DNA of 54,335 nucleotides from Akkermansia muciniphila (GTDB lineage: Bacteria; Verrucomicrobiota; Verrucomicrobiia; Verrucomicrobiales; Akkermansiaceae): contig CAMCYK010000009.1 in NCBI GenBank assembly GCA_945883695.1, positions 1-54,335 of the forward strand, read 5' to 3'. Shown piece after piece: positions 15,831-17,819 of this stretch. The first letter of the stretch is position 1. Each line of letters begins with the position of its first letter. Both the position numbers and the translations under genes were made by a program. The notes beneath the pieces were generated by a model. That model was not told where the DNA came from. It saw only the letters and a list, made by a program, of their open reading frames with translations, and did not search any database.

Positions 15831-15896
15831 GCCCCAAACTACGCTCGTCCCGCGTTTGTTCTAGCTCTGATCGCACGGACGCGTTTTGCCCGCGAT

Positions 15897-16979
15897 TTAT
15901 CCGAACACGCCCTTCCGGAGCTGGCGCAGGTTGAACAAGCGATCTTCAGCCCGGCCCGTGTTCTCAAGGCCCCGCAGCGGCCGCGCGCCGTTCTTGCGCT
16001 TCGGGCCGAAGCGTTCGCGGCAGGCTTGGAAGATCCCTTCGACGAAGTTCTTCCCGCCCAGCACCGCGCCGTCGCTGAAGTAGCGGACCTTGCAGCGCAG
16101 GTAGTCGGCTTGCGACAGCTTCCCACCCTGCGCCAGCACCTCCAGCGCCTTGTCCCGCGGGATCCGATCCCGGAACACCTCGGCCATCCCTTGCTTGGCC
16201 GCCAACTCCGCCTGCCGTTCCTCGCTTTCCGGGATCCCGAAGAGATGGCAACGCCAGCGGCGCAGGGCTTCCTTGGGCTCCGCGGCGGCGCCCTCCGGCT
16301 TCATCCCGCCGTGGGGATTGAGGGCGGCCAGCCAGGTCACCGCGGCGCGGGCTTCCATGCCGCCGGCCACCGCCTCGGCGTAGCCGCACCAGCGGTAATC
16401 CTTCGGATCGTCGCAGAGCTTCGCTCGGACCGGGTTGAGGTCGATGTAGGCGGCCATCGCCCGCAGCGCTTGGCCAACGCCTTCCACCAGCACCGAGCGG
16501 TAGCGGTCCTCCCACAAGGTTCCGCGGCGGGCGTGCCGGCCGTTGAACCACTGGGAAAAGCGCTGCTTGAGCACCTTCATGGAGGTGCTGACGTTCCACA
16601 TCCGCCCGAACCAGCTTTCGCGCAGGGCATCGGCGGCTTCGAGGTTCCCCTGGCTCCGGTGATGGGAAAGTTCCCACTCCAAGCCGTTGGCGAGCTTGTC
16701 GCCGAGGCAGTCGCGGACCTTGGCCACCAGCGCCGCGTCATCCGGCAGATCCGCGGCCGCCGGCCGCCGGGGGACTTCCACCAGGATGTGGAAGTGGTTC
16801 GACATCATGCAGTAGGAAAGCACGCGCAGGCCGTAGAGCCGTTCGTAGGTGCGCATGTATTCCACCAACTTGTCCTTCTCCGCGTCGCCCAGCACGAAGT
16901 CGCGGTTCACCACGCGTGAAACGCAGTGGTAATAGGCCACCGGGTGGGACGCGGGAGCTTTCAGACGGGGCCGGCGCAT
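15897..16979 (-). CDS. REP-associated tyrosine transposase (IS200-like, Y1/HUH family)
   Basis: A 360-residue single-strand DNA transposase-like protein. The N-terminal block (HPVAYYHCVSRVVNRDFVLG), the region LRVLSYCMMSNHFHILVEVP with the HUH pair His62/His64, and the segment MKVLKQRFSQWFNGRHARRG followed by GTLWEDRYRSVLVEG are typical of RAYT proteins. The C-terminal half (AAYIDLNPVRAKLCDDPKDY onward) is also family-typical. Related enzymes cut and join REP palindromes and are usually single-copy, domesticated genes. In the helix where many IS200-like enzymes carry the catalytic tyrosine I read Phe (QRFSQWF), so which residue serves as nucleophile is unclear. The ORF is intact. Its start codon is only 15 bases from a large repeat array, which suggests that the array is its substrate or by-product. 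Confidence 0.88.
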   Translation of the reverse strand: MRRPRLKAPASHPVAYYHCVSRVVNRDFVLGDAEKDKLVEYMRTYERLYGLRVLSYCMMSNHFHILVEVPRRPAAADLPDDAALVAKVRDCLGDKLANGLEWELSHHRSQGNLEAADALRESWFGRMWNVSTSMKVLKQRFSQWFNGRHARRGTLWEDRYRSVLVEGVGQALRAMAAYIDLNPVRAKLCDDPKDYRWCGYAEAVAGGMEARAAVTWLAALNPHGGMKPEGAAAEPKEALRRWRCHLFGIPESEERQAELAAKQGMAEVFRDRIPRDKALEVLAQGGKLSQADYLRCKVRYFSDGAVLGGKNFVEGIFQACRERFGPKRKNGARPLRGLENTGRAEDRLFNLRQLRKGVFG

Positions 16980-16993
16980 GTCAAGAGCATGAC

Positions 16994-17525
16994 GGGACGG
17001 TGCATAGAGGCAAGCATCTTCTCCGGAGGGACGGGCATTTTAAAAGACCTGGACGGTGCATAGAGGCAAGCATCTTCTTCGGAGGGACGGGCATTTTAAA
17101 AGACCTGGCTTCGGAGGGACGGGCATTTTCATCTTCTTCGGAGGGACGGGCATTTTAAAAGACCTGGCTTCGGAGGGACGGGCATTTTAAAAGACCTGGC
17201 TTCGGAGGGACGGGCATTTTAAAAGACCGGCTTCGGAGGGACCGCTTTGGAGGGACGGGCATTTTAAAAGACCGGGCATTTTAAAAGACCGCTTCGGAGG
17301 GACCGCTTTGGAGGGACGGGCATTTTAAAAGACCGTAAAAGACCGCGGGACCGTAAAAGACCGCGGAGGGACCGCTTCGGAGGGACGGGCATTTTAAAAG
17401 ACCGGGCATTTTAAAAGACCGGGACGGTGCATAGAGGCAAGCATCTTCTTCGGAGGGACGGGCATTTTAAAAGACCGGGCATTTTAAAAGACCGGGCACT
17501 TTAAAAGACCGGCACTTTAAAAGAC
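16994..17525. repeat. Nested tandem repeat array upstream of the transposase gene
   Basis: About 530 bases built almost wholly from one core, GGGCATTTTAAAAGACC, preceded by CTTCGGAGGGAC. I count roughly 14 copies of the TTTTAAAAGACC core (the last two as CACTTTAAAAGACC) plus shortened pieces such as CCGTAAAAGACCGC. Three copies are embedded in a longer unit that begins GGACGGTGCATAGAGGCAAG and runs through GCATCTTCT (starting near 16994, 17051 and 17421). Spacing is irregular: full copies about 32 bases apart alternate with 18-base truncated copies, and one copy is cut at 17130 and fused to the middle of the long unit. The pattern is that of repeated partial duplication, not a CRISPR. The core contains the palindrome TTTTAAAA. 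Confidence 0.9.
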
Positions 17526-17819
17526 CCCCGACGCGATATATTTCCCGTTTTCCGGCCAGTAGATGTTGAAACCAAGCCTCGGCCAATTGTGGTCGTATTT
17601 CCCGTTTCCCGGCCAGTAGATGTTGAAACCAAGCCTCGGCCAATTGTGGTCGAGTGACATGCCGGCGCCGTTGGTGCCAAAGATCGCGGTCGCAAGCTCC
17701 CCGGATCCGTTCACCACCTCGGGGCGGCCTTTGGTCGGATCAGCAACCCCGATCCCCACGTTTTGCGCGAAGAGAGGCCCAGGCAGAACAAGCAGGCTGT
17801 CGAGGAATTTGCACATCAT
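17517..17819 (-). pseudogene. Truncated tail-fibre-like secreted protein, cut off at the repeat array
   Basis: The open frame encodes 100 residues: a short hydrophobic leader ending FAQ, then NVGIGVADPTKGRPEVV and FGTNGAGMSLDHNWPRLGFN, which resemble the start of tail-fibre-like surface proteins (NVGIGT.P...LEV type). The frame then holds two near-identical 19-residue units (DHNWPRLGFNIYWPGNGKY and the same with one Gly-to-Glu change) and stops a few codons later at a TAA supplied by the repeat array. Proteins of this type normally continue for hundreds of residues, so this is the 5' end of a gene broken at the array. It might still be expressed as a short secreted peptide. The family resemblance is by eye. 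Confidence 0.6.
17539..17652. repeat. 57-bp tandem duplication at the array edge
   Basis: Positions 17539-17595 and 17596-17652 are direct copies that differ at a single base (CGTTTTCC against CGTTTCCC). The unit is in frame (19 codons) inside the truncated tail-fibre-like gene and lies directly beside the nested repeat array. Confidence 0.92.

Follow-up and report, generated by a model that had tools for sequence, protein, structure and literature searches.

The closest described counterpart of the locus analysed here is the TIRYT, or TIRtron (Di Nocera 2013, PMC3733652), many of whose terminal inverted repeats (TIRs) lie in dimers or clusters; 20 of 26 examples correspond to subclass 2.1 in Quentin 2018 (PMC6006769). 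RAYT-like (non-IS200) genes are present in more than 25% of the species analysed there (PMC6006769), and such proteins have so far been described either as not self-copying or as lacking typical insertion-sequence features. TnpA-REP proteins cut single-stranded DNA at CT, in one case also at CA, and at CC when the guide motif is changed; cutting forms a tyrosine-5'-phosphate link that can be resolved by another 3'-OH (PMC8266576). Arrays of left ends next to Y1 transposase genes were not found described in the accessible parts of the literature on TIRYT, TnpAREP and Verrucomicrobia.

The window (the whole stretch of DNA analysed, 54,335 nucleotides) contains an open reading frame of 360 aa with an ATG start on the minus strand, preceded by an array of repeats. 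The following features were delimited:

15897..16979, minus strand: RAYT-like Y1 (HUH) transposase gene, from Pfam, NCBIfam, the invariant residues H62-F63-H64 and Y178---N182-P183, and AF2/Foldseek
Stop codon of the transposase gene (15897..16979, minus strand): right border of the dispersed unit, from the drop in identity past the stop
15878..15896, no strand: stretch from the stop codon to where homology with the equivalent intergenic region of genome G010 resumes, by eye
16993..17526, minus strand: array of left-end copies, parsed into 21 segments that mostly share one start but end at several places, from repeat search and parsing
17009..17014, minus strand: -35-like box CTTGCC, 35 nt ahead of the ATG, from counts of TTG position in 80 copies
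17028..17050, minus strand: gene-proximal left end, head GGTCTTTTAAAATGCC followed by CGTCCC, from aligned left ends
17539..17652, no strand: 57-nt tandem duplication, two copies 98% alike, just beyond the array and within the adjoining ORF fragment

The window protein matched Pfam Y1_Tnp (E = 2.2e-13) and NCBIfam REP_Tyr_transpos (E = 4.5e-15), the latter with 55.8 bits, which is under the curated cut-off of 80. The residues listed above were invariant in 44 aligned relatives, and the top Foldseek match of the AF2 model (pLDDT 87.2) was TnpA-REP (PDB 4er8, E = 2.9e-5). Having the HUH motif and Y---NP in its Y1 core, the protein belongs to TnpAY1 class 2, the RAYT-like class, on catalytic residues and fold. 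It thereby shares the fold and motifs of the catalytic core with RAYT/REPtron systems; unlike these, no dispersed family of hairpin repeats was found here, and self-copying, which is said to be absent from RAYT genes (PMC8049555, citing Bertels 2017), does occur. TnpAY1 subclass 2.3 (PMC6006769) is similar in its long protein (median 325 aa there, 360 here), in having several diverged copies per genome and in that no REP was found, recent spread being suggested there; however, that subclass is reported to prevail in Chromatiales and Alteromonadales, and no mention of left-end arrays for it was found in the accessible text of that paper. With IS200/IS605 elements (IS608, ISDra2) the locus has in common a Y1 transposase, mobility and ends that are mostly not inverted repeats; it differs in having Y---NP rather than Y---Q, a large C-terminal part, no significant hairpin at the left end and a right border at about the stop codon.

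The repeat core GGGCATTTTAAAAGACC was matched 14 times with at most two mismatches, 12 of them exactly, all on the plus strand at 17033-17526 (mean of 0.00 matches in 100 shuffles). This bore out the initial annotation, which had reported an intact RAYT-type ORF fronted by about 14 core copies; its distance of 15 bases to the start codon holds for the inner end of the longest repeat unit (about 15 nt), whereas the nearest core is 53 nt away. When the whole assembly (6.32 Mb in 391 contigs, 92.6% complete) was searched with the same tolerance, all 14 of 14 matches were those of the array beside the RAYT-like gene, with none on the other strand and none for a reversed control. Among 214 loci, the core occurred in 17, every one a piece of the window contig, and was absent from the other 197. 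The array was correctly distinguished from dispersed REPs at the outset, and rightly called irregular: parsed against the gene-proximal unit it comprised 21 segments, of which 16 started at one place (within 5 nt), four at a second place and one elsewhere, whereas segment ends fell at about six places. This pattern of fixed start and variable end is clear in the window array, which is a stack of copies of the element's own left end, most of them beginning at the outer tip and extending inward to differing extents. The array ends an ORF fragment (17517-17819, minus strand) within which the 57-nt duplication is in frame; the fragment had no second match in its own genome, and a search of the other 17 genomes of the genus gave no match either.

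Seven full-length copies were present in the same genome, i.e., the window copy and six paralogs (78-86% protein identity; 79.0-87.9% nucleotide identity within the set). Five of the six had repeated segments directly upstream, with a sequence of its own in each; the sixth is only 89 nt away from the end of its contig, where an unrelated repeat of 8 nt is present. Only a frame was common to the copies, and not the window core: an AT-rich head (mostly ending GCC or GTC), then (T/C)GTCCC, a purine-rich stretch and CTTGC. A strict signature of the inner left end was matched four times in the genome, each time (4/4) ahead of a paralog, against one match for a reversed control. Fragments were also numerous, often at contig ends, and some belonged to a second, more distant RAYT-like subfamily, whose identity with the window protein was mostly 36-57%; this subfamily was broken at many G000 contig ends (e.g., L050-L056 and L063-L069), as expected of a multi-copy element. 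In one locus (L003), a C-terminal fragment (residues 284-343) of another copy lay just beyond the left-end array.

In comparisons of copies, the dispersed unit began about 10 nt outside (T/C)GTCCC, extended to near the stop codon and had sharp borders. Across 18 aligned left ends (including L001, anchored on a wrong CGTCCC), identity was kept from about 10 nt outside (T/C)GTCCC inward and was at background level farther out. Among 19 close copies, identity dropped from 0.72 over the final six bases of the gene to 0.24-0.29 in all bins past the stop; six pairs of 93-95% identity in one genome also diverged near the stop codon. By eye, the common part of the JAGNEJ copies ended a few codons ahead of the stop, which was supplied by the differing flanks. 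The unit therefore occurs as an insertion sequence does, in several copies at different places with sharp borders, except that the JAGNEJ copies L146, L156 and L164 have at least 60 nt of downstream sequence in common. A conserved DNA motif at the right end was considered and rejected, none being found by the codon-position test; third-position agreement at fourfold sites was 0.63 in the central part, compared with 0.52 over the first 16 codons and 0.44 over the last 16.

Left junctions could be set against uninterrupted DNA in two cases. In genome G007, after 119 identical bases, contig C13 carries on a reading frame where contig C12 has the left end. In G010, the flank corresponded to G007 at 94% over 116 nt and to G000 at 92% over 108 nt, these matches stopping 3 and 11 nt short of the set border, respectively. 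The head lay within the inserted sequence at both junctions, and the idea that it represents pre-existing target DNA was not supported. The right flank in G010 had no match to the same region, so that this was no clean two-sided empty site; for the window copy, an empty site was not found among 18 genus genomes, its right neighbour being matched in 16 of the 18 (own included) and the left ORF fragment solely in the window's own genome (1 of 18). Six contigs started 121-129 nt ahead of the left end as set, which is the size of an assembly overlap and hints at a mixture of filled and empty sites; G007 is the one confirmed case. C12 in G007 (L198; C13 is L199) is a 4.6-kb element contig with the same 119-nt flank at both ends, possibly reflecting a circle, a tandem duplication or an assembly fork. 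In addition, an apparent copy of the second subfamily in G010 (L173, 1-391) ended in the intergenic region equivalent to that of the window copy, ahead of the ortholog of the window's 77-aa gene; this intergenic site seems to have been hit twice within the genus.

Two-sided TIRs were not supported as a general feature. The window copy scored 8 against a null mean of 8.3, and a score of at least 9 was obtained for 30 of 86 copies where 34.0 were expected. There were exceptions: four of 86 copies scored at least 13 (L121, L024, L029 and L152; 0.8 expected), and in L024 and L152 the repeat included the left-end motif. By eye, a GGACAGGCA-like sequence was found downstream in L041 and L078, and an inverted TGGGTGTC downstream of the Pseudoalteromonas copy L209. 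A right repeat may therefore exist in a minority of copies (L024 and L152; by eye, L041 and L078). Folding of left-end DNA, covering nine strands, gave no significant hairpin (best z = -1.95), so that the subterminal hairpins of IS200/IS605 elements were not seen at the left end. Nor did the locus have the dispersed flanking palindromes of a REP system, as the core was confined to the array, the signature stood only before paralogs and no significant hairpin was found. Given a RAYT-like protein, no REP family and the absence of two-sided inverted repeats from most copies, the element is described here as a TIRYT-like mobile element with one recognisable end. It resembles TIRYT/TIRtron systems in its Y1 HUH protein with Y---NP, in the absence of REPs and possibly in a GGGGWSAS-like motif near the 5' end, which reads GGGAC(A/G)G on one strand here; such a motif lay beside the gene in 63 of 80 copies upstream, against 9/76 and 6/65 in controls, for a motif set that was picked after reading the sequences. 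Unlike those systems, it mostly has no matching inverted repeat on the right side, is present in several copies per genome, and carries stacks at the left end only, with copy-specific heads.

Repeats upstream of the gene were surveyed in 109 distinct copies, each with its 5' end and at least 200 aa. The sources were 38 genomes at genus, family and order level, with that of the window among them and 18 of the 38 having a match at E = 1e-60 or better, together with further stretches and 80 loci kept out of 178 from a GTDB scan. The criterion was a repeated 11-mer inside a 200-nt region. For 95 copies the full 200 nt upstream could be examined, and repeats were present there in 40 of the 95, the copies being related and hence not independent draws. 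The corresponding values were 2/101 for the 200 nt downstream, 3/81 for the region 1001-1200 nt upstream, 3/109 within the gene and 41/1428 for tiles more than 600 nt distant. No upstream repeat was detected in 55 of the 95; the automatically assigned start codon of some distant copies seems to be internal, making part of the 200 nt coding, which can only hide arrays. When arranged by identity to the window protein, upstream repeats affected 12 of 20 copies at 60% or above, 9 of 18 at 45-60% and 19 of 57 below 45%. The initial annotation had proposed local amplification, driven by the enzyme or by replication, and the one-sided repeats across the family uphold local amplification and a tie to the enzyme family. 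Many copies have a head of their own; since so many heads differ, many arrays probably arose separately. A search of a phage collection gave no match. Nine plasmid records were matched, and of the four that were read, repeated upstream segments were seen by eye in L209 and L210 and none in L207 and L208.

Among 80 copies whose start codon aligned to query residue 1-6, TTG occurred at -36, -35 or -34 in 49; it started between -42 and -33 in 55 of 80, compared with 6/80 and 18/80 in two control windows. The spacing of left end, -35-like box and ATG was nearly fixed. With a -10 box near -12, the mRNA would be leaderless or nearly so, and a transposase bound at the left end, just upstream of the -35-like box, could act on its own promoter. 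The array had originally been placed over the presumed promoter; its bulk is in fact upstream of the -35-like box, which sits at the gene-proximal end.

A preferred break point was identified within the arrays, just before GTCCC. Heads ending (G/A)(C/T)C before (T/C)G(T/A)CCC, AGGCA or AGACAAA were taken as anchors, being present in 47 of 109 copies; 18 of these had further head copies upstream, 46 head copies altogether. The match to the gene-proximal copy ended 0-2 nt past the head in 27 of the 46, and at 9-10 nt in 10 more. At least one break at 0-2 nt was present in 15 of 18 arrays, and 12 distinct head ends (9 nt) were represented among these; when heads were swapped between copies, a mean of 1.8 copies had any match, so that one or two of the 18 may be due to chance. 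Shifting the anchor by -3, +3 or +6 nt left breaks 0-2 nt on in 1/38, 1/23 and 1/21 (one array each for the 3-nt shifts), while a shift of +9 nt gave 13/24, in four arrays, and shifts of +12, +15 and +18 nt gave 0/8, 6/15 and 7/12. There is thus a second cluster of breaks 9 nt farther inward, and not one site alone. The dinucleotides at the main break were C|T, C|C and C|A. In a crude test over 32 arrays, starts were fewer than ends in 8, more in 3 and equal in 21, and were not significantly better fixed than ends.

Between relatives, repeat number differed at one orthologous site. This concerned L118 and L119, the same locus in two related MAGs, where the left flank was 92.6%, the right flank 89.8% and the gene 84.9% identical; the left-end region contained a single unit in one MAG but two units and part of a third in the other, with 72 gapped bases in all. 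In L116 and L117, also from two MAGs, the gene (94.7%) and right flank (93.8%) were alike and the left flanks diverged at the left-end tip, with two left ends in one and one in the other; a chimeric contig is a possible cause of this divergence. The paralogs L131 and L132 (95.0%) differed by several small duplications inside their arrays.

The reading that we narrowly favour for these patterns is recurrent duplication of the left tip, started by the enzyme's own cutting and rejoining of its single-stranded left end. The unit is a mobile element of RAYT/TIRYT type, extending from the left end (AT-rich head, (T/C)GTCCC and promoter) to about the stop codon; its transposase would nick the single-stranded form of that left end at C|T, C|C or C|A and so leave a 5'-phosphotyrosine end. 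Were this end, with no matching right end involved, rejoined to a sister strand or a displaced one, every failed or one-ended event would add one truncated left end, and homologous slippage might afterwards expand or trim the stack. Complete transposition is left unexplained by such a model, as no conserved right-end motif was found. The main rival, which is possible and which we hold in second place, is ordinary replication slippage or template switching at AT-rich repeats near a bound protein or stalled fork, for which catalysis is not needed. The 57-nt duplication outside the left end, and the varied small tandem copies that differ between L131 and L132, indicate that some duplication needs no special site; together with the breaks at least 9 nt inward, the 57-nt pair speaks for at least some duplication being unaided. 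Furthermore, in one mutation accumulation line, five of the six copies in a REPIN cluster were lost (PMC8049555). Slippage alone, however, would not be expected to produce repeats on one side of the gene (40/95 against 2/101), nor a break point common to 15 of 18 arrays.

Other explanations carry much less weight. That arrays are kept by selection, as stacks of operators or enhancers tuning the transposase promoter, would fit the near-fixed spacing around the -35-like box, which would put a transposase bound at the left end at its own promoter; yet more than half of the copies lack a detected repeat and the sequences vary from copy to copy, making this improbable. The initial annotation took the repeats for REP-like target sites on which the enzyme acts, and tnpA-REP genes are indeed often flanked by their own REPs (PMC6006769); but the exact core is absent elsewhere in the assembly and from the 197 loci outside the window contig, left ends have no significant DNA hairpin, and the repeated unit is inserted left-end sequence in relatives with a visible junction, all of which renders target sites very improbable. 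An artefact of short-read metagenome assembly might be suspected because the window genome is split into 391 contigs and the relatives include many MAGs; repeats were also present in isolate-titled records of Roseibacillus (L105, L110), Rubritalea (L154, L168) and Verrucomicrobium (L122), so that metagenome assembly alone does not account for them, and we consider this explanation barely credible.

Returning to the enzyme-driven duplication of left tips, it is conceivable, and put forward tentatively, that a branch of RAYT-like genes consists of mobile elements with one recognisable end and a right border at about the stop codon, whose transposase stacks left ends by cutting at a fixed place. 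If so, the stack would be a record, readable from sequence, of failed or one-ended transposition events. This bears on how RAYT-like genes spread and on how short repeats arise beside them. Left-end stacks with a common break point directly predict the position at which the enzyme cuts, and they allow the birth of repeats to be followed at one locus.

Two further arrangements were recorded among the surveyed copies. In two genomes, the copies L023 and L043 (L091, L100) lay, by eye, directly past a terminator-like hairpin that follows PEP-CTERM-like genes. In L167 (Co_bin.135), about ten 11-nt units GAATGGCACGC stood in a run just beyond the left end.
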